Source: a virus. From it: DNA of 26,728 nucleotides. Shown piece after piece: positions 2,376 through 18,874 of this stretch. The notes under the pieces are model-generated. The model saw only the letters and a program-made list of their open reading frames with translations, was not told the DNA's origin and ran no database searches. The stretch's first letter is position 1, and every line of letters begins with the position of its first letter. A program made the position numbers and the translations under genes. The stretch lies in the IMG/VR virus record IMGVR_UViG_3300047546_002517, positions 1 to 26,728 of that record. The stretch is one strand, 5' to 3'.

Positions 2376-2387
2376 CGTGGACAGAGA

Positions 2388-2717
2388 ATGGCAACCAAAG
2401 CAAACATCATTATAGATCAAGGAACAACATTTTCAACTATCATTAATTTGACTGATGACAATGGTGATCCTATCGATTTGACTGGATACACAGGGGATTC
2501 AGAAATGCGTAAGCATTACACATCGTCTAATTCTCAGAGTTTTTCAGTAAGTCTTGGTGGTACTAGTGGAACAGTTACTCTTAGTCTCACAGCAGCTCAG
2601 ACTGCTAATCTTACACCTGGCAGATATGTATATGATGTCGAGGTAACAAGTGCCTCCAATGTTGTTTCTAGAATTGTTGAAGGTATTGTTACAGTAACAC
2701 CTGAAGTAACGAGGTAA
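2388..2717 (+). CDS. Small beta-rich virion structural protein
   Basis: A 109-residue protein starting 12 nt after the S74 fibre gene. It opens with a DQGTTF segment followed by LTDDNGDPIDLTGY and has GRYVYDVEV and IVEGIVTVTPEVTR near the end. This pattern (a bound-tether start, LTGY, GRYxYD, EGxxxVTP) is familiar from small proteins next to fibre genes in marine T4-like phages and resembles immunoglobulin-like or BppU-type N-terminal baseplate domains. I infer a beta-sandwich that sits on the baseplate or at a fibre junction. No enzymatic motif, signal peptide or membrane segment is visible. The ribosome binding site is weak (ACAGAGA), so it may depend on translation of the upstream gene. 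The next gene starts 3 nt after its stop codon. The exact role is unknown. Confidence 0.75.
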   Translation: MATKANIIIDQGTTFSTIINLTDDNGDPIDLTGYTGDSEMRKHYTSSNSQSFSVSLGGTSGTVTLSLTAAQTANLTPGRYVYDVEVTSASNVVSRIVEGIVTVTPEVTR

Positions 2718-2719
2718 GC

Positions 2720-2983
2720 ATGTCGCTGAACTCTGCAACAATCAAACTTGCAACTTCTTCCACAATTAGAGCAACGGTTAATACTGGTGGTAGCCAGATT
2801 CAATCGACGGCTCCAGTCACTCTTTCTACAAAAATAAACAGACTAGACCAACTTGCTGATGTTGTTGAGTCTTCACCAGTGGATAACTCTACTTTAGTAT
2901 ACAGATCTTCAGATGATAAATATATTGTAAGACAATTAACTTTGGAAGATTTAGGGGGCGCAGTTGACGGTGGTTCTTTTTAA
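2720..2983 (+). CDS. Small fibre-associated protein
   Basis: An 87-residue protein whose ATG lies 3 nt after the preceding stop, with GAGG just upstream overlapping the end of that gene. The first half is Ser/Thr/Ile-rich. The second half carries RLDQLADVVESSPVDNSTLV followed by YRSSDDKYIV. This matches the widespread fibre module of type LxDxxDVxxxxxxxGxxLVYdxxxxkWv, which also appears in the next large gene as LDGLSDVEVTSASAGQILIA. It ends DGGSF, nearly the same as the DGGTF end of the 3015-4697 protein, so the two share a C-terminal element despite very different lengths. It could be a fibre connector, or a trimmed relative of the larger gene. Function is unassigned. Confidence 0.72.
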   Translation: MSLNSATIKLATSSTIRATVNTGGSQIQSTAPVTLSTKINRLDQLADVVESSPVDNSTLVYRSSDDKYIVRQLTLEDLGGAVDGGSF

Positions 2984-3014
2984 TATGATTGCCTAAAATA
3001 AGGAAAAAAAACAA

Positions 3015-4697
3015 ATGGCTAATCTAATTCAGATCAAAAGATCGCTCAATTCAAGCACGCCTGGATCGCTTGCTAATGGTGAACTTGCGTTTACCGCTAA
3101 TGGGGATGTACTTTACATCGGTAGTAACTCTACAGTCGTTGCTATTGGTGGTAAACGAGTTCCGGGTACCCTAACAGCAAACCAAGCACTTGTTGCTAAT
3201 GCAACCAGCTATCTTGACGCTATCAAGGTTGCAAATGCAACGATAGATAAAGTATACGCTAACGGTACTTTCGGAACAGCCGGTCAGGTACTCACATCAA
3301 ATTCTACAGGTGGTGTGTATTTTGCAGCACCAGTAACTAATCTTGATGGTTTGTCGGATGTTGAAGTTACTTCTGCATCTGCTGGTCAAATTCTTATTGC
3401 AAACTCCACTGGATTCTTCAGAAACAAATCACTATCTGGTGATATAACAATTGATTCTGATGGTTTAGTTTCTATTGCTGCTGATTCCGTTGCTCTTGGC
3501 ACGGATACAACTGGAAACTACGTTGCAACAATCACAGCTGGTGCTGGTATATCTGGATCATCTTCTTCGGAAGGTGGAACGCCGACTATCGCTGTTGTAG
3601 CTAACAGTGGTATTGTATCCAATTCTAGCGGGGTATTCGCAAATACAGATAATTCAACTTTAGAGTTGTCTGGTGGTGTGATCAGAGTCAAAGATGATGG
3701 TATTGCACTTGGTACCAAGACAACAGGTAATTATGTTGCTACTATCACAGCTGGTAACGGTATTTCAGGATCGTCTTCAACAGAGGGTGGTGCACCTACC
3801 ATTGCAGTTGTTGCAGGAAACGGTATTGCATCAAATTCAACTGGTGTACACGTTGTAGCTGGAACAGGTGTAGTATCAAATTCGACCGGTGTTCATATTG
3901 GTCAAGCTATTGGAACAACAGACAATGTTACATTCAATGACCTAACAGTCAACGGTAACACTATAATTGGAAACGCATCGAGTGATAGAGTCACAGTCAA
4001 TGCTCAACTATCTTCCGATATTATTCCATCAGCAAACATAACTTATAGTCTTGGTAACAATACTCTAAGATTTCTTGAAGTACATGCACAGAATGCACAT
4101 TCTGAATATTTGTATGTTGATAAAGATGTTACAGTCAGTGGTAACTTAACAGTATCAGGCTCACTTGTTACAATTAACGTTGCTACGTTGTCTGTTACAG
4201 ACTCGTTGATTCAACTAGCATCAAATAATACATTATCAGATTCTTTAGACATTGGTTTCTATGGAAGTTATCAGGTTGGTGGTGGTGATCACGAACATAC
4301 TGGTTTGTTTAGAGATGCTACAACCGATACCTATAAACTGTTCAAGGGGCTAACGTTAGCCCCAACAACAACAGTTGATGTAACTGGCACTGGATACACT
4401 CAAGCAACGTTAGAAGCATACTTATCTTCGGGTGGATTATCAACAAATTCTACAGCAGTTGCTCTTACAGCTAACAGCACCGTTGCTGTTTCTATAACAG
4501 CTAACTCATTGACATTGAGCACTCCATTAGTTGGAACGAGTGGTGGTACAGGACTCGCTTCTTACACAGCAGAGGATATCCTTGTTGCAAACTCATCTAA
4601 CGGATTCAGAAAGCTCGCTGCGGGATCAGAGGGATATGTATTACAAATCTCGGGTGGTGTGGTTGCATATGGAACATTAGACGGAGGAACATTCTAA
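3015..4697 (+). CDS. Tail fibre-like protein with Mtd-type N-terminal segment
   Basis: A 560-residue structural protein. It starts MANLIQIKRS, followed by GSLANGELAFTANGDVLYIG, the pattern of the N-terminal domain of Mtd-like tropism and fibre proteins (IQIKRS, GELA, LYIG), probably the attachment end. An LxGLSDVxV module follows near residue 115. The middle holds paired modules with ALGTxTTGNYVATITAG and GNGISGSSSTEGG, repeated near residues 155-200 and 228-270. A YSLGNNTLRF module and a TVSGNLTVSGS segment come later. It ends LDGGTF. There is no S74 domain and no C-type lectin-like variable region. AAGGA precedes the ATG by about 10 nt. Shared sequence with the 4935-9356 fibre, including GTAGQVLTSN, indicates paralogy. 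It may be a long-fibre segment or a baseplate-associated fibre. Confidence 0.8.
   Translation: MANLIQIKRSLNSSTPGSLANGELAFTANGDVLYIGSNSTVVAIGGKRVPGTLTANQALVANATSYLDAIKVANATIDKVYANGTFGTAGQVLTSNSTGGVYFAAPVTNLDGLSDVEVTSASAGQILIANSTGFFRNKSLSGDITIDSDGLVSIAADSVALGTDTTGNYVATITAGAGISGSSSSEGGTPTIAVVANSGIVSNSSGVFANTDNSTLELSGGVIRVKDDGIALGTKTTGNYVATITAGNGISGSSSTEGGAPTIAVVAGNGIASNSTGVHVVAGTGVVSNSTGVHIGQAIGTTDNVTFNDLTVNGNTIIGNASSDRVTVNAQLSSDIIPSANITYSLGNNTLRFLEVHAQNAHSEYLYVDKDVTVSGNLTVSGSLVTINVATLSVTDSLIQLASNNTLSDSLDIGFYGSYQVGGGDHEHTGLFRDATTDTYKLFKGLTLAPTTTVDVTGTGYTQATLEAYLSSGGLSTNSTAVALTANSTVAVSITANSLTLSTPLVGTSGGTGLASYTAEDILVANSSNGFRKLAAGSEGYVLQISGGVVAYGTLDGGTF
4346..4363. repeat. Perfect 18-nt palindrome inside a fibre gene
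   Basis: The sequence GGGGCTAACGTTAGCCCC is its own reverse complement over all 18 nt. It lies inside the 560-residue fibre coding region and encodes part of FKGLTLAPT. It is GC-rich compared with its AT-rich surroundings. It may be chance, or a protein-binding or hairpin-forming site. Confidence 0.85.
4683..4687 (+). promoter_or_regulatory. Ribosome binding site GGAGG deciding a TTG start
   Basis: GGAGG lies 10 nt before the TTG at 4698. It sits inside the codons for the terminal DGGTF of the upstream protein, so the same bases encode that C-terminus and start the next gene. It supports a TTG start directly after the TAA. Confidence 0.6.
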
Positions 4698-4904
4698 TTG
4701 GAACCTGAATTTGTTAATGCTTATATTATTAAACAAAAAAATTGGATTGAAGATTTACTTGCAAAGCATATAATATTAGAAGTCCGAGTACAAATGGCAG
4801 AGGCGAAAGCAGCACAACTAGCTGAGCAGGTAGCCTTGCTAAATAATAAGTTAGAAAAACAAACACCAAAGAAAAAATCAGAAAATTCTGATTCTAACTT
4901 TTAA
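4698..4904 (+). CDS. Small coiled-coil protein between fibre genes
   Basis: A 68-residue protein read from a TTG start placed immediately after the TAA of the upstream fibre gene, with GGAGG 10 nt before it. The sequence opens MEPEFVNAYIIKQKNWIEDL and continues as a long helix with a heptad-like pattern (ILEVRVQMAEAKAAQLAEQV), then a Lys-rich, Asp/Ser-rich tail. I recall similar small proteins next to fibre genes in marine T4-like phages, but no function is known to me. The helix-only character, small size and position between two fibre genes suggest a fibre assembly chaperone or trimerisation aid. The next ATG in frame, at 4794, would remove the conserved-looking first half, so TTG is preferred. 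Confidence 0.7.
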   Translation: MEPEFVNAYIIKQKNWIEDLLAKHIILEVRVQMAEAKAAQLAEQVALLNNKLEKQTPKKKSENSDSNF

Positions 4905-4905
4905 T

Positions 4906-4924
4906 AGCTCTACATAGAGTTTTT
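4906..4924 (+). terminator. Possible weak hairpin plus T-tract
   Basis: AGCTCT, loop ACAT, then AGAGTT can pair over six base pairs (one G-T), followed by a T run at 4920-4924. It sits between the coiled-coil gene and the largest fibre gene. The stem is short and AT-rich, so termination would be partial at best. Confidence 0.3.
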
Positions 4925-4934
4925 GAGGGGCCAT

Positions 4935-7900
4935 ATGGCTAATAAATTTCAAGTCAAACGTACGACGGTTTCCGGCCGTACTCCCAATACTACCAATTCT
5001 GGTAATTCTCATTTCATTGATACGGGTGAGCTGGCGCTCAATCTTACCGATGGTAAGATGTTTTCGTCTAACGGAACAGTATACTTTGAAATAGGTGCTA
5101 ATTTACAAAACATTTCTATTGCCTCCAATGCTACATTTGATAGCTCTGGAAAAATTGTTGCTAATGGTTCGTTTGGTACTGCAGGCCAAGTACTTACTTC
5201 AAACGGTACAACAATGTACTGGTCCACTGTCAGTGGTGGAGGTGGATCTGGCACAGTTACACAAGTCAATACAGGTATTGGTTTATCAGGTGGACCAATC
5301 ACAACTACAGGAACAATATCAGTTGTAGCAAATGATGGTATTGTTGCTAACTCGAGTGGATTATTTGCCAATGCAGGAACCGGTGTTGTAGTCAATGCAA
5401 CTGGTATTCATGTTAATTCTTCTTATATCGGAACATTAGCTGCTAATAGTGCAACATATGTTGGTGGTAATACTGCTCTTGATTTAAGAAACTACTCTGA
5501 TACAGTAGCTGGCACTGCTTATACAAATGCCACTGCTTTTGCTGCAAATGCTACTAATATTTCATCTGGAACACTCGACGCAGCAAGACTTCCTGCAACA
5601 GTTGTTCAAAATACTGATTCAAGGACTCTTTCCGGTAATCTAGTAATATCTGGTACCTATTTTAATCCTAGCTCTAATACTGTCCTTCTAGGTAATTCTA
5701 TTCAAAGATGGATTATTTCCGGTAATAGTGGATCTTTTTCTGGAAACGTCAGTGCCTCGTATCTCAGTGCTCAATTTGGTGTTTCAGGTGCAACCTTAAG
5801 CATTGGTGGTGCACTTACAGCTAATTCGAGTGGAGCAGTACTGAATTCCGCTGATTTAACATTCAGTGGTCCAGGTACAATAATTATTGGTGCTGCAGGA
5901 ACCCTTGCCAATAGTTCAACCTTCAAAGTTCAAACAAATTTTACCGCTAATACTTTAGGTGCATATCATACAGGAACTATTAACGCAGCATCATTAACTA
6001 CTCTCAATTTCAGAGCTAATACCTCTGGAGCTTACCCCCTTTCGAATAGCTTCGGCATTGCACTAGGATCATCAACTCAGCGTTGGGTAATTAATGCAAA
6101 CACTGGTGATTTTAGCGGTACTGTTGCTGCTGGAAATACAACAATCACTGGATTTGCTAATGCATCTGTTAGTGTTAATTCTGCGTTATTAACAGTAGGC
6201 ACTTCCTTCATTGCAAATACAACCGGTGCTTATCATACCGGTATAATCAATGCAGCCAGCTTGACTGTTGGTTCAAACTTTGTTGCTAACTCAACAGCAA
6301 TAGTCGGTACTGGATTTGCTAATATATCCACCTCTGTCAACAGTGCTCTTTTAACTGTTGGTACATCTTTTGTTGCTAATACAACAGGAGCTTACCATAC
6401 CGGTATAATCAATGCGGCTAGCTTTTCAACAAGTGGATTTGTTGGTAATACGACTGTCATTGCACCAACATCCAACACAATACTGCTAGGTAACTCGATT
6501 GGTAGATTTGTAATATCTGCTAACACTGGTGATTTTACAGGAACTGTTACTGGTACAGTTGCTGATATGTCAACAAGTGTCAATAGTGCTTTGTTGACTG
6601 TTGGTACATCTTTTGTTGCTAATACAACTGGTGCTTATCATACCGGTACCATCAATGCTGCTAGCTTTACTACAACAGGGCTGGTTGCCAATGCAACAGC
6701 AATTGCACCAACATCTAATACAATACTACTAGGTAACTCGATTGGTAGATTTGTAATATCTGCTGATACTATCAATGCTTCAGGACTGATTACAGGATCA
6801 GCTGGTGCTAATATTACTGGTACTGCAAATTTAGTTGATGTTAACATATCAGGAAATTTAACAGTATCCGGTACAACCACGTATGTTAATACTACCAACT
6901 TAAATGTTGGTGATAACATTGTTACTCTTAATGCAGATTTAACCAACTTAACAGCTCCAACAGAAAACGCAGGGTTAGAGGTAAACCGTGGAAGTGCTGC
7001 CAACGTAAACTTCTTGTGGAATGAGACTTCGGACTCGTGGACATTAGGTAACACTGATATTACCGGTTACGCAAACGTAACAACAAGCGTCAATAGCGCA
7101 TTGCTAACTGTAGGTACTTCATTCATTGCAAATAGTACTGCAATCGTAGGAACTGGTTACGCAAATATTTCAACATCAGTCAATTCTGCATTATTGACTG
7201 TAGGTACATCGTTTGTTGCTAATACAACAGGAGCTTACCATACAGGCACAATTAATTCAGCTAGTTTCACCACAACAAATTTTACTGCAAACACAAGTGG
7301 TGCTTATCCACTTTCTAATTCAGCAGGCACTGCATTAGGGTCTTCAACAAAACGATGGGTTATAACAGCTAATACAGGTAACTTTACTGGTACAGTTACT
7401 GGTACAGTTGCTAATTTGTCAACGAGTGTAAATAGTGCTCTTTTGACTGTAGGAACCAGTTTCATTGCAAACACAACTGGTGCATATCATACCGGTGCAG
7501 TTAATGCAGCAAGTCTGAGTATTGGTTCAGGATCGTTCACAACTAATTCATCTTCAATTGTATTGGCTAGTCCAGTTACAGCCAATGGATCAACAGGAAC
7601 ATCGGGGTATGTTCTTACATCTAATGGATCAAGTGGGTCTCCTTATTGGGCTGCTGCTACAATTACTTCTAACTCTATTGGAAGAACAGTAACCTCGTAT
7701 ACAGGAAATGGATCAAATACAACATTTGATGTAACCTACACTGTTGGTAATATTGATGTGTATCAGAATGGTATTAGGCTAATTGATAGCTCCGATTATA
7801 ATGCCACGTCTGGAACACAAGTCATATTTAATACCGCTCCTTCTAGTGGTGATAATATTGATTTTATTGTATATTCACAAGCAACAGTTGCTCCTGTAAA

Positions 7901-9356
7901 CGCAAGAACAGTTACAAATTATACTGCGGATGGATCAACAAGTACATATAGTGTTTCTTATGAAGTTGGTTACTTGGATGTATATGTAAACGGTATAAGA
8001 TTAAGCAGTGGAGTGGATTTCACAGCGACGAATGGATCAAGTGTAACATTTACTGTTACTCCGCTGTCATCAGACTATATTGAGCTGGTTTCTCAGACGG
8101 TGGCTCCATTGCAGGGCAATGGTTCTATAAGAACAACAGCTTTTTATACCGGTGATGGAATCACAACCAGCTTTGACATCAACTATGATAATGGATACCT
8201 TGATGTATATGTTAACGGTACAAAATACAAGAACGTAGACGATTATACAGCTACTAATGGAACAAGTGTAACAATTCTATCAGCACCGCTTGCTGGTGAT
8301 AATATTGAACTAGTTTCATATAAAAATAATGTCAAGATTATAGACCTTTCTTATGTACAAAAGAACGGTGATACAATGACGGGTACGCTTCTTGTTCCAG
8401 CACTTGTATCATCAGGAAATGTCAGTGGTGTGAATGGCTACTTTACTACAGTTAATGCTGCCAGCCATACTATAGGATCTATCTTTATAGCTAATACAAC
8501 TGGTGCATATCATACAGGTACTGTCAATGCTGCAAGTCATACAATTGGCTCTAGCTTTATAGCTAATACAACTGGTACATATCATACTGGTACTACAAAT
8601 GCAGCTAGCTACACAGTAGGTTCCAATTTTATAGCTAATACAACTGGTGCATATCATACAGGTACTGTAAATGCTGCAAGTCATACAATTGGCGCAAGTT
8701 TCATTGCAAACACAACTGGCGTATATCATACAGGTACTATAAATGCAGCAAGCATAACTATAGGGTCCAGTTCTTTTATTGCTAATTCAACAGCTGTTGT
8801 TATTGCAGATCCACTGACAGCTAACGGTACAACAGGAACATCTGGACAAGTACTAACTTCAAATGGAACAACTGGGTCTCCTTACTGGGCTAATACAACG
8901 GGCGGTGGTTCTACTGCTTTTAATGATGTTAGTACAAACGATGTAAGATATGTTTTATTTGCAAACCAGACAAGTGGAACAATTTCGAATGCTTATGTTT
9001 CTAGTTCAAAACTACAATACAACCCATCAACCGGTACTCTAACCTCTGTAGTAATCACATCTTCTTCTGACGAAAGAATGAAACAGAATGTTGAAACGAT
9101 ATATAACTCCAACGATGTATTGAATAGTTTGAGAGGAGTTTCTTTCGAAAGAAAGGACAGCGGTAAAAAAGACTACGGTGTCATTGCTCAAGAAATAGAA
9201 AAGGTGATACCAGAAATAGTTCACACAGACAGCGATGGATACAAATCAGTATCTTATAATAGCATAATTGGTTTTTTGATTGAAGGTTTGAAGAATCAGA
9301 ATGATAAAATTAATAATTTAGAAAACTTAGTTAACAAATTAATTGAGAAAAAATAA
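4935..9356 (+). CDS. Giant tail fibre protein with Peptidase_S74 chaperone domain
   Basis: A 1473-residue fibre. The ATG at 4935 is preferred over the TTG at 4923 because GAGGGG lies 4-9 nt upstream and MANKFQVKRT matches the Mtd-like start of the 3015 gene. Parts in order: an N-terminal GELALNLTDGKMF attachment segment; a GTAGQVLTSN module; LGxSxxRW modules; many FIANTTGAYHTG units between about residues 335 and 870; three 74-residue beta repeats from 917, 991 and 1066; VQKNGDTMTGTL near 1140; four 24-residue repeats (1173-1268); and a C-terminal S74 chaperone with SSSDERMK. Ser1378 and Lys1383 are the expected self-cleavage dyad, and GVIAQEIEKVIP the family signature. It ends in a coiled coil. 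It is a candidate long tail fibre and paralogous to the 165-2375 gene in its last 95 residues. Confidence 0.88.
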   Translation: MANKFQVKRTTVSGRTPNTTNSGNSHFIDTGELALNLTDGKMFSSNGTVYFEIGANLQNISIASNATFDSSGKIVANGSFGTAGQVLTSNGTTMYWSTVSGGGGSGTVTQVNTGIGLSGGPITTTGTISVVANDGIVANSSGLFANAGTGVVVNATGIHVNSSYIGTLAANSATYVGGNTALDLRNYSDTVAGTAYTNATAFAANATNISSGTLDAARLPATVVQNTDSRTLSGNLVISGTYFNPSSNTVLLGNSIQRWIISGNSGSFSGNVSASYLSAQFGVSGATLSIGGALTANSSGAVLNSADLTFSGPGTIIIGAAGTLANSSTFKVQTNFTANTLGAYHTGTINAASLTTLNFRANTSGAYPLSNSFGIALGSSTQRWVINANTGDFSGTVAAGNTTITGFANASVSVNSALLTVGTSFIANTTGAYHTGIINAASLTVGSNFVANSTAIVGTGFANISTSVNSALLTVGTSFVANTTGAYHTGIINAASFSTSGFVGNTTVIAPTSNTILLGNSIGRFVISANTGDFTGTVTGTVADMSTSVNSALLTVGTSFVANTTGAYHTGTINAASFTTTGLVANATAIAPTSNTILLGNSIGRFVISADTINASGLITGSAGANITGTANLVDVNISGNLTVSGTTTYVNTTNLNVGDNIVTLNADLTNLTAPTENAGLEVNRGSAANVNFLWNETSDSWTLGNTDITGYANVTTSVNSALLTVGTSFIANSTAIVGTGYANISTSVNSALLTVGTSFVANTTGAYHTGTINSASFTTTNFTANTSGAYPLSNSAGTALGSSTKRWVITANTGNFTGTVTGTVANLSTSVNSALLTVGTSFIANTTGAYHTGAVNAASLSIGSGSFTTNSSSIVLASPVTANGSTGTSGYVLTSNGSSGSPYWAAATITSNSIGRTVTSYTGNGSNTTFDVTYTVGNIDVYQNGIRLIDSSDYNATSGTQVIFNTAPSSGDNIDFIVYSQATVAPVNARTVTNYTADGSTSTYSVSYEVGYLDVYVNGIRLSSGVDFTATNGSSVTFTVTPLSSDYIELVSQTVAPLQGNGSIRTTAFYTGDGITTSFDINYDNGYLDVYVNGTKYKNVDDYTATNGTSVTILSAPLAGDNIELVSYKNNVKIIDLSYVQKNGDTMTGTLLVPALVSSGNVSGVNGYFTTVNAASHTIGSIFIANTTGAYHTGTVNAASHTIGSSFIANTTGTYHTGTTNAASYTVGSNFIANTTGAYHTGTVNAASHTIGASFIANTTGVYHTGTINAASITIGSSSFIANSTAVVIADPLTANGTTGTSGQVLTSNGTTGSPYWANTTGGGSTAFNDVSTNDVRYVLFANQTSGTISNAYVSSSKLQYNPSTGTLTSVVITSSSDERMKQNVETIYNSNDVLNSLRGVSFERKDSGKKDYGVIAQEIEKVIPEIVHTDSDGYKSVSYNSIIGFLIEGLKNQNDKINNLENLVNKLIEKK
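6486..6764 (+). repeat. 36-nt exact direct repeat within the giant fibre gene
   Basis: Positions 6486-6521 and 6729-6764 are identical over 36 nt, starting CTAGGTAACTCGATTGG and encoding the LGNSIGRFVISA segment. The copies are 243 nt apart, in frame (81 codons). Flanking sequence is similar but diverged. An in-frame spacing means recombination between the copies would keep the gene open. Confidence 0.85.
7683..8339 (+). repeat. Three tandem beta-domain repeats (about 74 residues each)
   Basis: Three consecutive in-frame units start at 7683, 7905 and 8130. Each has the order RTxTxYTxDG, then V(S/T)Y, then (I/L)DVYVNGxR or a close form, then DYxATNGTSV, then GDNIELVSY. Such repeats are common in fibres of marine myophages and probably form small beta-sandwich domains stacked along the shaft. 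The nucleotide sequences are diverged, so the triplication is old compared with the 72-nt repeats downstream. Confidence 0.85.
8451..8738 (+). repeat. Four tandem 72-nt repeats plus a partial fifth
   Basis: Units start at 8451, 8523, 8595 and 8667, each encoding 24 residues of the form xNAASHTIGSxFIANTTGxYHTGT. A diverged fifth begins at 8739. The stretches 8484-8549 and 8628-8693 match at 65 of 66 positions, at an offset of exactly two units (144 nt), while neighbouring units differ more. This points to a recent duplication or gene conversion of a two-unit block. Units encode the fibre shaft. Confidence 0.9.
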
Positions 9357-10964
9357 ATGGGAAAAGCATTAGAACTTACACAACTACCGTCTTTTGTTGT
9401 TGCTAACTCAACAACAATGACTGTCAATGCTTTCAACTTTACAGTTGGATCTGATTTCATAGCCAACACAACTGGTGCATATCATACTGGTACGGTCAAT
9501 GCTGCTAGCCATACTGTTGGATCCAGTTTCATTGCTAATTCTACTGCAGTAATTGTTGGAAATACATCAGTTGGATGGTTTGGTTTTGGTGAAACAACAC
9601 CAGTTTCGACCAGAGCATTTAATATAAAACGAAGCTGGACAACTGATAGTACAGCTATGACATCGTTTTCTAATACGATAATTAATAATACTACACTAAC
9701 AGCTCCAAGAGGGTACTACGGCCAATGGAATATTATAACTTCAAATATTCTTGATGCTAATTCATCTGGTGGAATACAGGGATCGGATGTATACGGTACT
9801 TACACCTATGCATTAAACGGATCTGTTGGTGGTGATGCAAGAATCAATAATATTACTGGTTCAGGCAGCGAGGTGAGAAATCAAGCTGGTGGTGCAACAG
9901 CCAACACCGTCGATACAGCAACAGGATCTATATCTAAAGTAATACAGTCTTCTTCTGGTATAACAACGCAAGCTGTTGGAGTCAAATCTCAAATATATGC
10001 AGCTAATAATTCAGTAACTGGTAATGTTACATCCGCTTATGGATTTTCTTCATTGATACAAAGTAACACGGCGATGACTGTTGGTACTGGTTACTTGTAT
10101 CATGGAACGTACCAAGGATCGACAACCACAACAAGATATGGATTGTATATAACCGGTGAAGCAAATAATTACTTGTCTGGCAATTTGTCTGTTGCTGGAT
10201 CTGCTAATGTAACAACATCGGTAAACTCGGCACTACTAACGGTTGGATCTAATTTTATTGCTAATACTACTGGTGCATATCATACTGGTACGGTCAATGC
10301 TGCTAGTTATACAGTAGGTTCTAATTTTATTGCAAATACAACTGCAGTTGGGATTGGTACAACGAGCACACTAGGGAACTCATTACTGAGTGTTTTGACA
10401 GGGATCACTGCACGAACTGAAGCTGCATCTGGTGTCACACCATATTTTCAATCCTACAACGGAAATGCAAGCACGGATTTAAAGACTTGGCGTTTTGGTA
10501 CTGTTGCAGCTGGTGATTTAATTTTTGAAACTGTCAATGATGCTTATTCTGCTTCAACAGAGCGTATGCGTATTGATTCAAGCGCAAATTTGAAATTCAA
10601 CTCAGGTTACGGCTCTGTTGCTACAGCTTATGGTTGTCGTGCTTGGGTGAACTTTAATGGAACTGGTGTTGTGGCAATTCGTGCAAGTGGTAATGTGACG
10701 AGTATTACAGATAATGGTGTAGGTGATTACACAGTTAACTTCACCAATGCAATGCCCGATGGAAATTATGCATACCACATAGGCTCAAAACAAGATCAAG
10801 CTGGTGTTGGTGATGCAGCATTTCCAACAAACGGAACCCCAACTGGTGTAACCGATGGCGCAGCTGGCATGACAACCACAAGAATTCGACTTCGTTTTGT
10901 AAACCTTGATGGTACTGCGTCATTACGAGATCAAGAAGTTGTTTGCGTTTCAATTTTCAGATAA
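9357..10964 (+). CDS. Tail fibre protein with distinct C-terminal receptor-binding-type head
   Basis: A 535-residue protein whose ATG directly follows the TAA of the giant fibre gene, suggesting translational coupling. Residues 1-60 contain a short anchor (LELTQLPSF) and the shared FIANTTGAYHTG module. Residues about 65-270 contain a Gly/Ser/Thr-rich beta-solenoid-like region with YGQW, AYGFSSLIQ and TTRYGLYITGEANNY. A second FIANTTGAYHTG module lies near residues 300-320. An ERMRIDSSANLKF segment near residue 400 leads to a C-terminal head (about residues 425-535) starting YGCRAWVNFNGTG, with SITDNGVGDYTVNF and AMPDGNYAY. I recognise this head as a widely shared fibre tip in phages of proteobacteria. 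There is no S74 domain. It probably binds the host surface, with the two downstream small genes assisting assembly. Confidence 0.82.
   Translation: MGKALELTQLPSFVVANSTTMTVNAFNFTVGSDFIANTTGAYHTGTVNAASHTVGSSFIANSTAVIVGNTSVGWFGFGETTPVSTRAFNIKRSWTTDSTAMTSFSNTIINNTTLTAPRGYYGQWNIITSNILDANSSGGIQGSDVYGTYTYALNGSVGGDARINNITGSGSEVRNQAGGATANTVDTATGSISKVIQSSSGITTQAVGVKSQIYAANNSVTGNVTSAYGFSSLIQSNTAMTVGTGYLYHGTYQGSTTTTRYGLYITGEANNYLSGNLSVAGSANVTTSVNSALLTVGSNFIANTTGAYHTGTVNAASYTVGSNFIANTTAVGIGTTSTLGNSLLSVLTGITARTEAASGVTPYFQSYNGNASTDLKTWRFGTVAAGDLIFETVNDAYSASTERMRIDSSANLKFNSGYGSVATAYGCRAWVNFNGTGVVAIRASGNVTSITDNGVGDYTVNFTNAMPDGNYAYHIGSKQDQAGVGDAAFPTNGTPTGVTDGAAGMTTTRIRLRFVNLDGTASLRDQEVVCVSIFR
9471..10306 (+). 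repeat. 38-nt exact direct repeat within one fibre gene
   Basis: Positions 9471-9508 and 10269-10306 are identical over 38 nt, encoding the TGAYHTGTVNAAS module. They are 798 nt apart (266 codons, in frame). Recombination between them would remove the central beta-solenoid domain in frame. Related but non-identical copies occur in the neighbouring fibre genes. Confidence 0.88.
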
Positions 10965-10973
10965 GGAAAAACC

Positions 10974-11231
10974 ATGAACCAAGTAATCATTTACCCAAAC
11001 GACGAAGGTGTAGCCATCATTACTCCAGCACCTGATTGCGGTTTAACCATTGAGGAGATTGCCGCAAAGGATGTTCCTGAAGGCAAGCCTTTCAAGATTG
11101 TTGACGTAGCTGACATTCCGTCCGATAGAACTTTCAGGGCCGCATGGGAAGCTAATATAGTAGAACCTGACGGACACGGTATTGGACATGAAGCATGGTT
11201 TGCAGAACAGGCCGCCAAGGAGCAAGCATGA
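10974..11231 (+). CDS. Small phage protein, possible fibre assembly partner
   Basis: An 85-residue protein starting 9 nt after the fibre with the special C-terminal head, with AAGGA as ribosome binding site. The sequence begins MNQVIIYPNDEGVAIITPAP and includes LTIEEIAAKDVPEGKPFKIV and DIPSDRTFRAAWE, ending in an acidic, Ala-rich helix. I recall close relatives beside fibre genes in many proteobacterial phages and prophages, where they have no tested role. Its base composition is more GC-rich and its codon choice less AT-biased than the surrounding fibre genes, consistent with arrival together with the 10600-10964 fibre tip. Its stop overlaps the next start as ATGA. A role as tail fibre assembly chaperone is an inference from position and size. 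Confidence 0.75.
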   Translation: MNQVIIYPNDEGVAIITPAPDCGLTIEEIAAKDVPEGKPFKIVDVADIPSDRTFRAAWEANIVEPDGHGIGHEAWFAEQAAKEQA

Positions 11232-11464
11232 TTACGATAAACGTTGACAAAGCAAAAATAATTGCACATGACTTACGTCGTGCTGCAAGAGCCGAAGAAT
11301 TCAAACCGTATGATGATGCGATTGCAAAGCAAATTCCAGGTGAAGCAGAAGGAGCTGAGGCAGCAAGAGCGTTGATCAGAGCAAAGTATAAAACAATGCA
11401 AGAAGAAATAGACTCAGCTACAACGGTAGAAGAGATCAAGGCAGCAATGCCTCAGACTGATTAA
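11228..11464 (+). CDS. Small helical protein, possible tail fibre assembly chaperone
   Basis: A 78-residue protein. The ATG at 11228 overlaps the preceding stop (ATGA), which fits translational coupling better than the ATG 33 nt upstream, which would add MVCRTGRQGAS from inside the neighbour's coding region. The protein has MITINVDKAKIIAHDLRRAA at the start, a KQIPGEAEGAEAARALI segment, and an acidic end with VEEIKAAMP. It appears wholly alpha-helical and charged. I recall relatives in fibre-end cassettes of proteobacterial phages, paired with the upstream small gene. Together the pair is likely to help fold or attach the fibre encoded at 9357-10964. There is no direct evidence of function in the sequence. 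Confidence 0.75.
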   Translation: MITINVDKAKIIAHDLRRAARAEEFKPYDDAIAKQIPGEAEGAEAARALIRAKYKTMQEEIDSATTVEEIKAAMPQTD

Positions 11465-11494
11465 TTTAGTATCATAATGCCTTCAGAAATAAAG

Positions 11495-11502
11495 AATAAA
11501 TA
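11495..11502 (+). promoter_or_regulatory. Late promoter-like box AATAAATA
   Basis: AATAAATA differs at one position from the T4 late consensus TATAAATA and lies 21 nt before the ATG at 11524, in one of the few gaps of the fibre region (59 nt). The spacing to the start is close to that of the perfect box before gp13. The AT-rich context makes chance matches possible. Confidence 0.45.
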
Positions 11503-11523
11503 ATAGTTTAACAATAAACAATA

Positions 11524-12477
11524 ATGGCAACAACAAGATCATCAGAGTTATCAAAATTACCTTCTAATATAACTACGTCTGGTAATGTTGTATTCAGTAA
11601 TAATGTTTCAATTACTGGGTATGCCAATGTTACTGTTTCGGTTAACAGTGCTTTATTTACTGTTGGATCATCATTTGTAGCTAATAGTACTGGTGTTTAT
11701 CACGATACCTTAAATATAGGATCTGGTGCACTAACTTCCAATTCTACTTCTATTACTCTTAATGCTCCGTTGATAGCAAACGGTACAACAGGTGGGGCTG
11801 GCCAGTTTTTATATTCTAACGGAGCTACTGGTTCGCCTTACTGGAGTACGGCATTTACTGAGCCACTGATATATGATTCTTTATCGAGCAAATTCAACGG
11901 AGTATTGAAAGATTTTGTGCTGAGAGCTAATGGTGTGGTATCGGGTGTATACAGTAGTAGGTTGATGACAGTTACATCTGGTGGTGTCAGTATAAGTGGT
12001 GTGGATTTTACAAAGACTGATTATTTCAATGCACCTATCTTTTTTGATGATTTTACCAGTGGATTTAGAATAGATAGATCTGCATTAGTTGTCAATGTAT
12101 CAAGCTCATCTATTTCAACGAGCGAAGATGTTTATCAGCTAGATTCCAATAATTGTGTGATATATACAGCAAAGTGTGTAGAGAGTAATTCAACGTCTGT
12201 AATATTAACAAATGTGAGGAAAGCTGGATCCACAATCGAGACAAACACATCACCAGTTGTTGTTGGATCTTTGTTAGGAAGAAAAGGTGGATCGGCTACC
12301 ATAGCTAATTCCACTGTGTCTTTTGTTTCTGTTATAAACTTCGCAAATGCACCAACTAAATATAACAGAACGATCGAAATAAAAAGAAACAGCTCGTCGG
12401 ATGTAAGCACCACAGCAACGAGAGTTTTTGCAAGTATCATCCCATTTAGCCCAATTAACATCATGTTATCAGAATAA
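11524..12477 (+). CDS. Short fibre-like virion protein
   Basis: A 317-residue protein. It begins MATTRSSELSKLPSNI, reminiscent of the LELTQLPSF start of the 9357 gene, then has one copy each of the shared modules: VNSALFTVGSSFVANSTGVY, an IGSGALTSNSTSITL segment, and the GTTGGAGQFLYSNGATGSPY element that in the two long fibres precedes the S74 domain. From residue about 115 the sequence is unrelated to the other fibres, beta-rich, with no recognised motif, and it ends IIPFSPINIMLSE. I infer a fibre or tip protein that keeps the common N-terminal connector and carries its own distal domain. A promoter-like box lies just upstream. Its specific function is unknown. Confidence 0.75.
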   Translation: MATTRSSELSKLPSNITTSGNVVFSNNVSITGYANVTVSVNSALFTVGSSFVANSTGVYHDTLNIGSGALTSNSTSITLNAPLIANGTTGGAGQFLYSNGATGSPYWSTAFTEPLIYDSLSSKFNGVLKDFVLRANGVVSGVYSSRLMTVTSGGVSISGVDFTKTDYFNAPIFFDDFTSGFRIDRSALVVNVSSSSISTSEDVYQLDSNNCVIYTAKCVESNSTSVILTNVRKAGSTIETNTSPVVVGSLLGRKGGSATIANSTVSFVSVINFANAPTKYNRTIEIKRNSSSDVSTTATRVFASIIPFSPINIMLSE

Positions 12478-12492
12478 CGGAGAAATAAAAAC

Positions 12493-15400
12493 ATGGCAAG
12501 AAGAGTAATCCCAGACTTTGTATATACATTCAACACAGTAGCTCAGACAATTGCTGTTCGTGGTTATTATCCTCTAGAAAAACTAGCACTGATAACTAAC
12601 GTAACAGATAATTTGGTGATGTATAACTTTGCAGATCCAACATTTGCAGGCACTACAGCTACTTTCAACAGTAATACAAACACCACAACCATTACGTTGA
12701 ACTACAATACATCTTCAATGAGTAATAATGATGTAATTCAGATACTTGTTGATGAGACTGATATGGCAATAACAGCATCAGAGGAGTTGACTGATCCTGT
12801 TAATAAGATGCGTGTTAGTTTACCACAAGCGTTGATTGATACTGACTTTGAATACAGTACTCAGTCAACGAAATGGGAAACTGTTCCTATGATCAACTAC
12901 CAGCCATTTGGTTATCCAAACAATGCAACAACTCTGACTCTTACAACATATACAGCTGCAGCAAACGGTAGCAGAAACATAATTCTGACTCCTAATAACA
13001 GCCTTGTACAGGGTCAACCAGTTTATATCTACGACTCTGGATGGCACGGCTCAGATGGTGTGTTCCATGTTGTTGTAGCCAATTCAACAGCTGTTGTTTT
13101 GAATTCAAAGTATCCATTTCCAAATACAACATCAAACAACTTGTTAACTACATCTACAGTTGGATATGCTGGCCAGCAATATATTGGAGCAAACATTGCT
13201 CATTCGGCTGCAGTGTTCAGCACAAAAATGGTTAACGTTTCTACAACACAGGCTCACGGTCTTTCTGTAGGTAATGAAGTTGCTGTAATCAACTCAGTTG
13301 CTACTGCGTCTTTCAGTAATACACACGTTGTTGTGTCGGTTGCTAACAGCACAATGTTTAGCATCGTTCCAACTTCAGCACCTGGTACAATCACATCTCA
13401 ACAACTTGCATACTTACCATCCGGTGCTGCTCTTCATAGAGCATTTGATGGTGGTGTTAAATTTAGTACATTCAGTCAAAGTCATGGTCAGCAGCTAGTA
13501 AGACAGACAAGAAGATATTTTAGATATCAATCAGGTAAAGGTATTCAGCTTAGCACTGGTACTATCATGAAGCCTGAGATTACAATTGATTCATTGACAT
13601 CGTCTGGGACTACGGTTACTGTCATTACAAAAGAATTACACAATATTAACCCAGGTTTAGAAATTACAATAGCTGGTGCTGATCAGTCATCTTACAACGG
13701 AACATTTACCGTTGTTGATATATTGACTCCTTACAGTTTTACATATGTTGCTTTGTCAACCCCAACTGACTCCACTGCATCTGGTGATTATAGATTAAAC
13801 GTTTCTGCTTGGCATGGTGCTGGAATCCGTGTTGGTTTATTTGACGATCAGAATGGTTTGTTTTTTGAATACGACGGTCAACAGTTGTATGCTGTAATCA
13901 GACAAAGTACTTACCAATTGTCCGGGGCTGCTATATTAACTAACAACTCAGCATCAGTTACAAGTGCAACTCTTATAAACGGAGCAACAACAAGATTTGC
14001 ACGCCAGCTTGTACCTGGAGATACAATTATTATCAGAGGTCAGGCATATAAAGTTAACACTATTGCTTCTGATACTGCAATGACTATTAATCCTCCATAC
14101 AGAGGACCTACCATCACTGCTCCTTCGTATGCCACAATCACCAAGACCATCGATATTAAGATTCCACAATCTCAATGGAATATTGATCCATGTGATGGCT
14201 CTGGTAGAAGCGGATACAATCTTGACTTGACAAAGATGCAGATGTTCTACATCGACTATTCTTGGTACGGTGCTGGTTTCATCAGATGGGGATTCAGGGG
14301 ACCTGATGGTAATGTTGTTTATTGCCACAAGGTCGTTAACAATAATAAGAACTATGAAGCATATATGCGTTCTGGTAACTTGCCAGCAAGATATGAATCG
14401 CACACTCATGCAAAGTATACAGAATTAACATCCACACTTGATTCAAGTAATACAATTTCTATGGCTGTAGCAAATGCAATGTATTGGCCAAATACTGGTA
14501 TAGTATGGGTTCGTAATGATACACAAAGTGAATTTATCAAGTATGCATCGAGGTCTAATACATCATTGAACACTCTAACAAGAGCTGGTCAAGGTAACTT
14601 GGTTGCTACAATCACAACGACAGCTGGTTCTTCTACATTAGTAATGTCTGATACTACTGGTATTCGTGAAGGTATGTTTATACAGGCTAATAATGCTTCA
14701 GGGCTTTGGATTGTTCCACCTGATTCATATGTTGTTAGTGTTACAGCAAATGCATCTATCAAGTCTAGCAAGGCAGCACTACAATCAACAGTTGCAAACG
14801 TTGCAGCGATTGTTTCTCCTGGTGCAACTGCAGCTCAGACGTTTACATACTCAACAACAACTCCTATTCAAGTTCAGTTGCATTCACCTGCATTTGCTCC
14901 AACAATCAGCCACTGGGGTACCAGTGTGATTATGGATGGTAGATATGATGATGATAAATCTTTCATATTTACACAGGGTATGACAACTGGTCTTTCTGTC
15001 GCGGGTGCTGCTACAAACGTTTTACAAAGCTTCAGGATTGCACCAAGTGTTCATAACGGTATCCCAGGAGCGTTAGGAAGTAGAGAGATTGTAAACAGAA
15101 TGCAGATGGTATTAAGACAGTTGGATATGTTATCTGGTGGCCAATTCTTGGTCAGATTGATTTTGAATGGAACTATCAGTTCTGGCGGTGCAGCAGCTGC
15201 TCAAACATGGACAAACGTTGGTGGATCTAGCTTGGCTCAATATATCAATCATTCAAGTGCTACTACTATAACTGGTGGTGAGACGTTGTACGGTTTCTTC
15301 ACTAACAGCTCTGGTGGTTCGTCTAACTTGACAACAACAAGCCAGGAGTTGCCTTTGGTTAGAGACTTAGGTAACGGTGTATTGGGTGGATATTCAGGTC

Positions 15401-15567
15401 AAAATTCAATTTACGGCACTACTAACAATACAATTACATCGGTCACAGGCGCAGCTGCTGTCTATCCAGATGGTCCAGATGTTGTCAGTGTCGTTGTTAC
15501 TAATTTGACACCATCGACAGCTTTCACTGTTTTCAGCCGTATGTCTTGGACAGAAGCTCAAGCGTAA
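12493..15567 (+). CDS. Large conserved virion structural protein of marine T4-like phages
   Basis: A 1024-residue protein with GGAG 10 nt before its ATG. The N-terminus, MARRVIPDFVYTFNTVAQTI followed by KLALITNVTDNLVMYNFADP, and the segment near residues 315-365 (RAFDGGVKFST, QLVRQTRRYFRYQSGKGIQ) match my recollection of a large structural protein encoded near gp13 in cyanophages and related phages. A central part carries FFEYDGQQLYAVIRQSTY and, near 570-620, YSWYGAGFIRWGFRGPDG. Two regions (residues about 245-300 and 385-420) look like beta-barrel ligand domains with TTQAHGLSVGNEV and LHNINPGLEITIAG. It has no enzyme motif. It is probably a baseplate or peripheral tail component. It occupies the place of wac (fibritin) in the T4 order, but shows no fibritin-like coiled coil. 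Confidence 0.8.
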   Translation: MARRVIPDFVYTFNTVAQTIAVRGYYPLEKLALITNVTDNLVMYNFADPTFAGTTATFNSNTNTTTITLNYNTSSMSNNDVIQILVDETDMAITASEELTDPVNKMRVSLPQALIDTDFEYSTQSTKWETVPMINYQPFGYPNNATTLTLTTYTAAANGSRNIILTPNNSLVQGQPVYIYDSGWHGSDGVFHVVVANSTAVVLNSKYPFPNTTSNNLLTTSTVGYAGQQYIGANIAHSAAVFSTKMVNVSTTQAHGLSVGNEVAVINSVATASFSNTHVVVSVANSTMFSIVPTSAPGTITSQQLAYLPSGAALHRAFDGGVKFSTFSQSHGQQLVRQTRRYFRYQSGKGIQLSTGTIMKPEITIDSLTSSGTTVTVITKELHNINPGLEITIAGADQSSYNGTFTVVDILTPYSFTYVALSTPTDSTASGDYRLNVSAWHGAGIRVGLFDDQNGLFFEYDGQQLYAVIRQSTYQLSGAAILTNNSASVTSATLINGATTRFARQLVPGDTIIIRGQAYKVNTIASDTAMTINPPYRGPTITAPSYATITKTIDIKIPQSQWNIDPCDGSGRSGYNLDLTKMQMFYIDYSWYGAGFIRWGFRGPDGNVVYCHKVVNNNKNYEAYMRSGNLPARYESHTHAKYTELTSTLDSSNTISMAVANAMYWPNTGIVWVRNDTQSEFIKYASRSNTSLNTLTRAGQGNLVATITTTAGSSTLVMSDTTGIREGMFIQANNASGLWIVPPDSYVVSVTANASIKSSKAALQSTVANVAAIVSPGATAAQTFTYSTTTPIQVQLHSPAFAPTISHWGTSVIMDGRYDDDKSFIFTQGMTTGLSVAGAATNVLQSFRIAPSVHNGIPGALGSREIVNRMQMVLRQLDMLSGGQFLVRLILNGTISSGGAAAAQTWTNVGGSSLAQYINHSSATTITGGETLYGFFTNSSGGSSNLTTTSQELPLVRDLGNGVLGGYSGQNSIYGTTNNTITSVTGAAAVYPDGPDVVSVVVTNLTPSTAFTVFSRMSWTEAQA

Positions 15568-16599: not shown

Positions 16600-17340
16600 A
16601 TGGCCGTTCCAACATCAAGATCAGAATTCAAAGAATATTGCTTACGCAAGCTAGGCAAACCTGTAATTGAAATAAACGTTGATGATGATCAGGTCGAGGA
16701 CCGTATCGATGAAGCTCTTAAGTACTACTGGGATTATCATTTTGATGGTACTGAACGAATCTACTACAAGCACCAAATTACTGCTAATAATGTTGTTGAC
16801 AAATACATTACTCTTCCAGAAAACATAATTGGTGCTGTAAGAATATTTAACATTGGTGATCCAATGGTCACAAATAATCTTTTTGATATTCGATATCAAA
16901 TTGCGTTAAATGATCTCTACACTCTAACATCTGTTTCCATGATTCCATACTATATGATGTTTCAACATATCCAACACATGGAACAGTTATTGGTCGGTCA
17001 GCAACCAATAAGATACAATAGACACAATGATAAGTTGTATATTGATATGGATTGGAACAAAGTCAATGTTGGAAACTATCTAATTGTTGAAGCATATCAA
17101 ATACTAGATCCAGATGTTTATACCGATGCATGGGGAGATAGGTGGCTAGCTCTCTACGCAACTGCATTGATCAAAAAGCAGTGGGGATCAAATTTAACAA
17201 AGTTTAGTGGCCTACAACTACCTGGTGGTGTTCAATTTAACGGCGATAAAATATACAACGACGCTGACAATGAAATTGAAGCAATGGAAAAAGAGATGAG
17301 CACAAGCTACTCTTTGCCAGCATATGATATGATTGGCTAA
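16600..17340 (+). CDS. 13: Neck protein gp13 (head completion)
   Basis: A 246-residue homologue of T4 gp13, a neck protein that closes the filled head and, with gp14, forms the surface to which the tail attaches. The N-terminus, PTSRSEFKEYCLRKLGKP followed by IEINVDDDQVEDRIDEALKY, is the conserved family start. The middle has PENIIGAVRIFNIGDP and the C-terminal half has DPDVYTDAWGDRWLALYATA followed by KKQWGSNLTKF. It is shorter than T4 gp13 (309 residues), as is usual for marine relatives. It stands first in a cluster in T4 order and is preceded by a perfect late promoter and an AAGGAG ribosome binding site. Confidence 0.93.
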   Translation: MAVPTSRSEFKEYCLRKLGKPVIEINVDDDQVEDRIDEALKYYWDYHFDGTERIYYKHQITANNVVDKYITLPENIIGAVRIFNIGDPMVTNNLFDIRYQIALNDLYTLTSVSMIPYYMMFQHIQHMEQLLVGQQPIRYNRHNDKLYIDMDWNKVNVGNYLIVEAYQILDPDVYTDAWGDRWLALYATALIKKQWGSNLTKFSGLQLPGGVQFNGDKIYNDADNEIEAMEKEMSTSYSLPAYDMIG

Positions 17341-17344
17341 GGGG
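17340..17344 (+). promoter_or_regulatory. Ribosome binding site AGGGG facing an ATC codon
   Basis: AGGGG (within TAAGGGG, overlapping the end of gp13) ends 7 nt before ATC at 17352. This is ideal spacing for initiation at that codon, whereas the first ATG of the gp14 frame at 17436 has no comparable purine run upstream. Confidence 0.6.
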
Positions 17345-17351
17345 CAGTAAA

Positions 17352-18074
17352 ATCGCTACATCATTCTATTTTAATAACTTTGGTGCAAGCCAAGAGCAGC
17401 TACTGATTGAGAATCTAGTAGTTGAATCAATCCGTATGTACGGTCACGACTTGTACTATCTTCCAAGAACCAGAGTTAATGATGATGTAATTCTTGGTGA
17501 AGAATCATACTCTAAATTTCTTAGCCATTATATGGTTGAGATGTATATTAAAAATGTTGAAGGGTTTGCAGGACAGGGTGACTTCCTGTCTAAATTCAAT
17601 CTTGAGATCAGAGATCAGGTTACATTTACTGTAGCAAGAAGAACATTTAGTGATGAGGTAGGTGCATATACTTCTTTTGTAAGACCAAGAGAAGGTGATT
17701 TAATTTACTTCCCACTTAACAATAAGTTATTTGAAATCAAGTTTGTCGAACACGAAGCAATATTCTATCAACTTGGATCTTTGCAGACATTTGATCTTAC
17801 TTGTGAGTTATTTGAATACAGTAATGAAATTTTCAATACCGGTATTTCAACTATAGATGATAAACAAAGAGATATCACATTCAATCTCACAGACTTTGCA
17901 ATAAAGTTGCAAAATGGTCTTGCACTTGCCAGTGAGGATGGTTATGATCTTGTTCTAGAATCTTTCAGTTTGGATACACAAGATCCAATATCTGATAATA
18001 CAGAACTCCAAGCTGAGGGTGATGATATATTAGACTTTACTGAAATAGATCCTTTTAGTGAGGGAGTCTATTAA
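17352..18074 (+). CDS. 14: Neck protein gp14, apparent ATC start
   Basis: Homologue of T4 gp14, the neck protein that joins gp13 in the head-tail connection. The frame is open from 17328. The first ATG is at 17436, but the 28 codons before it read (start)ATSFYFNNFGASQEQLLIEN then LVVESIR, which I recall as the conserved N-terminus of gp14 in marine T4-like phages, where the start is Met-Ala-Thr-Ser. At that Met position the codon is ATC. There is no ATG, GTG or TTG in frame upstream, and AGGGG is correctly spaced. I therefore place the start at the ATC, giving 240 residues (T4 gp14 has 256). Later motifs include YGHDLYYLPRTRVNDD and GDLIYFPLNNKLFEIKFVEH. The gene overlaps gp15 by one base. 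If ATC is not used, a 212-residue form would start at 17436. Confidence 0.88.
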   Translation: MATSFYFNNFGASQEQLLIENLVVESIRMYGHDLYYLPRTRVNDDVILGEESYSKFLSHYMVEMYIKNVEGFAGQGDFLSKFNLEIRDQVTFTVARRTFSDEVGAYTSFVRPREGDLIYFPLNNKLFEIKFVEHEAIFYQLGSLQTFDLTCELFEYSNEIFNTGISTIDDKQRDITFNLTDFAIKLQNGLALASEDGYDLVLESFSLDTQDPISDNTELQAEGDDILDFTEIDPFSEGVY

Positions 18075-18874
18075 TGTTTAATCAAGTATTCTATCATGAC
18101 ACAATCAAGAAATATGTTGTTCTTTTTGGAACAATATTTAATGACATCTATATTTTGAAAAACGACGGTACTGATACTACCCAAACAATTAAGGTACCGG
18201 TATCGTACGGTCCAAAGCAAAAGTTTATTTCCAGACTAACACAGGATCCTAATCTTACCAAACCAGTTGCTATTCAACTGCCTAGAATAGGGTTTGAGAT
18301 GACTGATATGAGTTACGCATCTGAGCGTAAACTACCAACAATCAACAGAATAGCAGTTCAAGATCCAACCAATCCAAATAAGTTGAAGTATCAGTACATG
18401 CCTGTTCCTTATGACTTCAACTTCAGTCTTTATATCTTGGTTAAAAATGCAAACGACGGAACAAGAATTTTGGAGCAGATTCTTCCGTTCTTCACACCTG
18501 ATTGGACTGCAACCTTGAATCTTGACTCTTCAATGCAACACAAATACGATATTCCTATTGTGTTAAATGATGTGAGATCAGAAGATACCTACGAGGGTAA
18601 TTTTATAGAAAGAAGAGTTCTTACATGGACTCTCAACTTCACTCTCAAAGGGTTCATATTTGGTCCAACAAGAAAAGCAGAACAAATTAAGACTTCTATT
18701 ATCAATCTATATAATATAGATACAGCTAAACCGTTTTCCTCTGCTATTGGAAATACTCAGCTTCAAGATGTAATTACAACAATTCCTGTAGTTGCAGGAA
18801 AAACTTTAAGTCAGATTGAAGCTGATGATGATTATACATTTAGTCAAACAATAGAGCAGTTTTATGAAAGATGA
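18074..18874 (+). CDS. 15: Tail completion / sheath stabiliser protein gp15
   Basis: A 266-residue homologue of T4 gp15 (272 residues), which caps the top of the tail tube and sheath and joins the tail to the head neck. Conserved stretches include the start MFNQVFYHDTIKKYVVLFGT, IQLPRIGFEMTDMSYASERK, PVPYDFNFSLYI, and LEQILPFFTPDW followed by FIERRVLTWTLNFTLKGF. The ATG overlaps the gp14 stop by one base (TAATG), so the two are probably translationally coupled. It overlaps gp16 by 11 nt. The gene lies in its T4 position between gp14 and the terminase genes. No unusual features. Confidence 0.93.
   Translation: MFNQVFYHDTIKKYVVLFGTIFNDIYILKNDGTDTTQTIKVPVSYGPKQKFISRLTQDPNLTKPVAIQLPRIGFEMTDMSYASERKLPTINRIAVQDPTNPNKLKYQYMPVPYDFNFSLYILVKNANDGTRILEQILPFFTPDWTATLNLDSSMQHKYDIPIVLNDVRSEDTYEGNFIERRVLTWTLNFTLKGFIFGPTRKAEQIKTSIINLYNIDTAKPFSSAIGNTQLQDVITTIPVVAGKTLSQIEADDDYTFSQTIEQFYER

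Follow-up and report, generated by a model that had tools for sequence, protein, structure and literature searches.

To our knowledge, conserved AUH start codons (AUC, AUU or AUA; written ATH where DNA is meant) are documented for very few bacterial genes. In E. coli, infC, which encodes IF3, begins with ATT, its Streptomyces counterpart begins with ATC, and annotation commonly gets starts of this kind wrong; IF3 disfavours non-canonical starts, and the GTC start of Streptomyces sigR comes with experimental proof of IF3-controlled translation (PMC5472188). The free-standing homing endonuclease genes (HEGs) of phage T4 can contain promoters for the gene that follows, as with segG and gene 32, an arrangement that favours retention of the HEG (PMC2988022). 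A Shine-Dalgarno sequence raises re-initiation, which drops with intercistronic distance (PMC2268962). None of the three components is new by itself, whether the AUH start, the free-standing HEG or the embedded expression signal; in the literature that we searched, chiefly non-subscription, no paper turned up that reports AUH initiation of a phage neck gene or a change of start codon linked to HEGs, nor one describing a phage structural gene whose AUH start is conserved and shows repeated turnover, Shine-Dalgarno compensation and co-transfer with HEGs.

The neck gene gp14 discussed here resembles infC in having a conserved AUH initiator; however, the infC codon serves IF3 autoregulation, whereas gp14 is a phage structural gene and the AUH trait comes and goes within its family. 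Like sigR it would be an important gene with a rare non-canonical initiator, its initiation being predicted here from sequence, but sigR is a cellular regulator that uses GTC and has no mobile-element link. The HEG-bearing relatives are like segG and gene 32 in that an intergenic HEG adjoins an essential gene and carries its neighbour's expression signal; unlike that system, in which the signals are promoters, here they are a Shine-Dalgarno in the last HEG codons and a changed start codon, and the window itself is HEG-free. The match to T4 gp14 (Hc2 neck protein, PF11649) extends to family and to the order gp13-gp14-gp15, although the annotated T4-like phages DLP6, phiM12 and P-TIM40 start gp14 at ATG.

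The window, i.e., the whole stretch of 26,728 nucleotides that we analysed (IMGVR_UViG_3300047546_002517, positions 1 to 26,728), is a virus contig with T4-like structural genes; the features from gp13 to gp15 described next are on the plus strand. The 246-residue gp13 (neck/head completion protein; 16600..17340, stop TAA at 17338-17340), which also precedes gp14 in relatives, is followed by gp14 (17352..18074 including its stop), which matched PF11649 with an E-value of 4.4e-37 over residues 5-182, and then by gp15 (18074..18874, ATG start), assigned from its ORF and the gene order. The position of gp14 between gp13 and the gp15/terminase genes, the order of annotated T4-like phages, was thereby confirmed. 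The gp13/gp14 junction of the window is an 11 nt gap with no HEG. Reading the gp14 frame directly, an in-frame TGA (17325) is separated by eight sense codons (TAT GAT TGG CTA AGG GGC AGT AAA) from ATC (17352..17354), after which the frame continues GCT ACA TCA TTC TAT and so on (peptide ATSFYFNNFGASQEQ...) to ATC CGT ATG, this being the first in-frame ATG (17436..17438); there is no ATG, GTG or TTG in this frame between the stop at 17325 and 17436. The Shine-Dalgarno AAGGGG (17339..17344) begins within the gp13 stop, with 7 nt between it and the ATC, and the predicted anti-SD duplex is -7.4 kcal/mol there versus +0.1 at the ATG of 17436. We searched for special RNA structure at the start and folding gave nothing unusual (z = 0.63). 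A preliminary description of this DNA had proposed that gp14 begins at the ATC behind a good ribosome binding site, and that automatic annotation, taking the first ATG, would cut 28 residues; its coordinates were right on direct reading, and these proposals held up, the ATC being most likely where gp14 begins. The loss would be the 28 codons at 17352-17435, which include the conserved N-terminus ATSFYFNNFGASQEQLLIENLVVESIR (17355..17435).

We asked of IMG/VR how gp14 starts elsewhere. A pattern scan restricted to ATH returned 59 loci, 56 of which proved by tblastn to be real gp14 with ATC (the commonest), ATT or ATA at the same place. These fall into three groups, namely the clade of the window (76–93% identical), a group with ~50–54% identity, and cyanophage-like sequences (31–46%). 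A second scan that left the first codon free, and so was not selected on the start codon, yielded 113 distinct gp14 genes, with ATG in 86, GTG in 11, TTG in five, ATC in five and ATT in four; the remaining two have ATG one codon earlier. ATH thus accounts for 9/113, and no codon other than ATG, GTG, TTG or ATH was seen as the start of these 113 genes, so the position is strongly constrained, which fits an initiator. For 200 distinct gp14 loci we tabulated the start codon, the gap to gp13 and any insert; rates in this table are inflated by the ATH-targeted scan. On a quick, single-gene tree of 185 gp14 proteins the start must switch 16 times between ATH and ATG/GTG/TTG, and well-supported branches force at least 11 of these switches; by this tree, ATH starts appear to have been gained or lost repeatedly.

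Among 16 aligned members of the window clade, codons 2-28 gave pS 0.73 and pN 0.034, a JC-corrected dN/dS of ~0.012 with synonymous differences near saturation, and this ratio is below that of later parts of gp14; strong purifying selection acts on the 27 residues that follow the ATC. This bears directly on the reading that gp14 starts at the internal methionine of 17436 and that the 28 codons upstream are untranslated, which has in its favour that this is the first in-frame ATG. We regard it as very improbable: beyond the conservation of those codons, the ATG has no Shine-Dalgarno before it, the methionine is replaced by Val or Ile in several clade members (IRVY, IKIY, IRIY), and relatives with ATG start at the position of the ATC and not at that methionine. 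Equally improbable is a gp13-gp14 fusion made by programmed frameshifting or stop bypass, for which no start codon would be needed. Here the gp14 frame is indeed open upstream to 17328 and overlaps the end of gp13, but clade members differ in the spacing of gp13 and gp14, some having 10 nt and others 11, so that the two genes keep no constant relative frame and frameshifting cannot serve as a general mechanism; moreover, HEGs lie between the two genes in relatives and no slippery motif was seen by eye at the junction. The preliminary description had left room for an ATG-to-ATC error of sequencing or assembly, and ATC is one base from ATG in what is an IMG/VR-type virus contig. This part of its interpretation did not survive, because codons of this class stand at the same place in many independent assemblies, with C, T or A as the third base, and each ATH contig has a Shine-Dalgarno that the ATG relatives mostly do not; the chance of an error is negligible. 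Initiation of gp14 at the AUH codon is, in turn, very probable.

The preliminary description did not bring out that the trait is widespread and tied to a broken stop-start contact between gp13 and gp14. In most relatives the gp14 AUG (or GUG/UUG) lies no more than 9 nt from the gp13 stop, and most of these starts have a weak Shine-Dalgarno or none. Among phylogenetically independent pairs, 8.6 of 10 joined ATH to a gp13 gap of at least 10 nt and no pair contradicted this (median p 0.004); a strong Shine-Dalgarno accompanied ATH in 9.8 of 11 pairs (median p 0.002). Inserts of at least 30 nt were less closely linked to ATH (6.5 to 0.5, median p 0.03). Where gp13 was in view in the unselected sample, the gap was at least 10 nt in 8/8 ATH genes versus 14/99 others (Fisher, 1e-6). 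Median anti-SD energy was -7.8 for ATH and -3.1 for ATG genes, a difference that holds among inserts alone (p 3.5e-5). Within the window clade (16 members aligned) the ATH members keep a GGGG/GGAG element, with a variable spacer to AAA-ATH, and the ATG members L003, L005 and L006 are without it. Neither the link of ATH to inserts and HEGs nor that to the Shine-Dalgarno is absolute, because 14 of 36 inserted gp14 loci (the inserts are not all HEGs), and more such loci besides, start at ATG, and because some ATG gp14 genes have a strong Shine-Dalgarno, down to -12.3.

The preliminary description likewise did not show that in many relatives the trait is tied to HEGs at the gp13/gp14 junction. A gene lies between gp13 and gp14 in many ATH phages beyond the window clade, as well as in L001 and L002 within it, and our searches revealed three kinds of HEG at this site: GIY-YIG type A (Pfam GIY-YIG, 4e-10, with NUMOD3); a GIY-YIG-like type B that had no Pfam match but matched the homing endonuclease family phrog_314, and that has relatives annotated as putative homing endonucleases in Sinorhizobium phages; and HNH (Pfam HNH, 4e-4 and 4e-5; phrog_655). 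The L001 HEG, when searched in IMG/VR, matched only its own two contigs. The HEG stop is often 1-2 nt upstream of the ATH, and the last HEG codons form the Shine-Dalgarno, e.g., GGA GGC TAA A ATC and GGA ACC TAA A ATT. Shortened junctions of 100, 66, 41, 23, 18 and 12 nt still end in ATH, and that of 41 nt (L113) retains a recognisable HNH-HEG 3' end. When L134, L136 and L101 were compared with phages of another gp14 lineage that have the same HEG, the 40 nt ahead of the start, the ATT itself and 33 nt at the 5' end of gp14 were 91–100% identical to that other lineage, and from about gp14 nt 37 the identity reverted to their own. This shared tract is the signature of homing with co-conversion and means that the start codon was transferred horizontally. 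A rule that HEG insertion always gives ATH was considered and is contradicted by loci that have both a HEG and ATG.

Several further observations concern these junctions. Contig L083 (IMGVR_UViG_3300020042_010337) has two gp14 copies in opposite orientation, one with ATG and an HNH HEG and one with ATT and a 100-nt remnant, possibly through misassembly of a mixed population. In L086 (1504-2109) and L104 a second ORF of 201 residues (MISFKQFSEAWLTDKPDVRSPEVSG...) lies between the GIY-YIG-like HEG and gp14, and it ends in the same SGG-stop that gives the Shine-Dalgarno. Related HNH HEGs also precede another late gene, tail-tube-like by eye, in L281-L284, L286, L287 and L297, with TAAATA, which is T4 late promoter-like, at the HEG stop; the HEG 3' ends at that gene may carry a promoter instead of a Shine-Dalgarno.

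Comparing several phage records, we identified two more genes in sister phages that pair ATH with a Shine-Dalgarno. One encodes an RNase H-like exonuclease (phrog_107) and has ATT in 7/52 distinct relatives, all with a GGTGA-type Shine-Dalgarno that close ATG relatives are without; in G001 (IMGVR_UViG_3300008266_000014; L345:17388) its ATT follows AGGTGATAAA. The other, an IscA/HesB-like protein of 107 residues in G003 (IMGVR_UViG_3300008267_000003; L354:3946), has an apparent ATA start preceded by AAGGAGATTCAAA, with AAGGAG, and its G008 homologue has a standard start codon at that position. No HEG was seen beside either gene in the related phage records. A genome-wide relaxation of starts was rejected, as gp14, one exonuclease and one IscA-like gene were the only ones to stand out from several hundred mapped N-termini, antisense-frame matches and those with a nearby alternative start having been set aside by eye. 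A special initiator tRNA was also rejected; G001, with ATA, and G003, with ATG, each carry two tRNA-Met(CAU), so there is no tRNA-Met contrast between the ATH and ATG phages that were compared. Three related phage records held no phage IF3 homologue.

Overall, we judge the best explanation, and a likely one, to be AUC initiation with a compensating Shine-Dalgarno at a junction widened by a HEG or by a short leader. We propose that the AUC at 17352 would be read by fMet-tRNA via a third-position mismatch, and that this would work because a strong Shine-Dalgarno at good spacing compensates for the weak codon; such compensation is itself likely. Where AUG abuts the gp13 stop with little or no Shine-Dalgarno, gp14 probably needs the ribosomes that finish gp13. 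Widening of the junction by a HEG or a short leader would break this coupling, so that a strong Shine-Dalgarno would be needed; at such widened junctions the gene has its own, and in many lineages it starts at AUH. An AUG combined with a strong Shine-Dalgarno might overproduce gp14, and AUH would return output to a level appropriate to a low-copy neck protein. The preliminary description suggested that the rare codon may limit the amount of gp14; the pairing of weak codons with strong Shine-Dalgarno sites makes this plausible.

How the AUH arose in the first place admits several readings. On the more tentative one that the relatives suggest, junction HEGs carry a complete replacement initiation signal (Shine-Dalgarno and AUH); homing would rewrite the gp14 start (a transferred tract can run from the HEG 3' end through the start codon and ~33 nt into gp14), the phage would then depend on the HEG 3' end, the converted allele would perhaps be protected from cutting, and AUH would be left as a footprint after loss of the HEG. 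A slightly stronger candidate, though still short of an even chance, is that AUH in the window clade is unrelated to HEGs and reflects dosage setting, with a strong Shine-Dalgarno and a weak codon used at gp14 and at other genes. The exonuclease of this clade and the IscA-like gene of G003 fit this, as does the clade itself, which is HEG-free except for L001 and L002, nested among HEG-free members on the gp14 tree, so that a HEG may have entered a site that was already ATC-started. Against it, in other gp14 lineages ATH occurs beside HEGs or what is left of them, the ATT moves together with the HNH HEG, and the leader of L094 (AAGGGGTAATAAAATC) resembles the 3' end of the L001 HEG (AAGGAGCATAAAAATC), a likeness that does not tell the order of origin. 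It is unlikely that ATH is an immunity allele, in which a changed ATG together with nearby synonymous sites destroys the target of a junction-cutting HEG and which would for that reason be kept with or without the HEG. HEG type does partly track start codon and 5' recoding across gp14 lineages (HNH, ATTGCGACCTCGGTG; GIY-YIG A, ATCGCAACATCC), but HEG-bearing phages with ATG exist, and co-conversion of linked sequence accounts for the same pattern. As to the window, the ancestor of its clade probably already had a 10-11 nt leader with a Shine-Dalgarno and ATH. The window's own 11-nt leader would be either a HEG remnant or an independent swap of the same kind; we give the footprint an even chance and the two origins about equal weight, because two further ATH genes have no HEG seen beside them.

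The gp14 family offers dozens of natural AUH examples, in which the start was gained and lost independently several times and the Shine-Dalgarno changed to match, and therefore lets comparisons test the trade-off between start codon and Shine-Dalgarno strength. A further suggestion from this family is that selfish homing elements are able to rewrite the translation starts of essential genes. Gene callers restricted to ATG, GTG and TTG would truncate such phage proteins. Elsewhere in the window, positions 165-15567 encode tail-fibre-like proteins that are long and repetitive, with many ANTTGAYHTGT repeats, and of these proteins two end in an endosialidase-chaperone-like domain (SSDERLKTNVETI / SSDERMKQNVETI).
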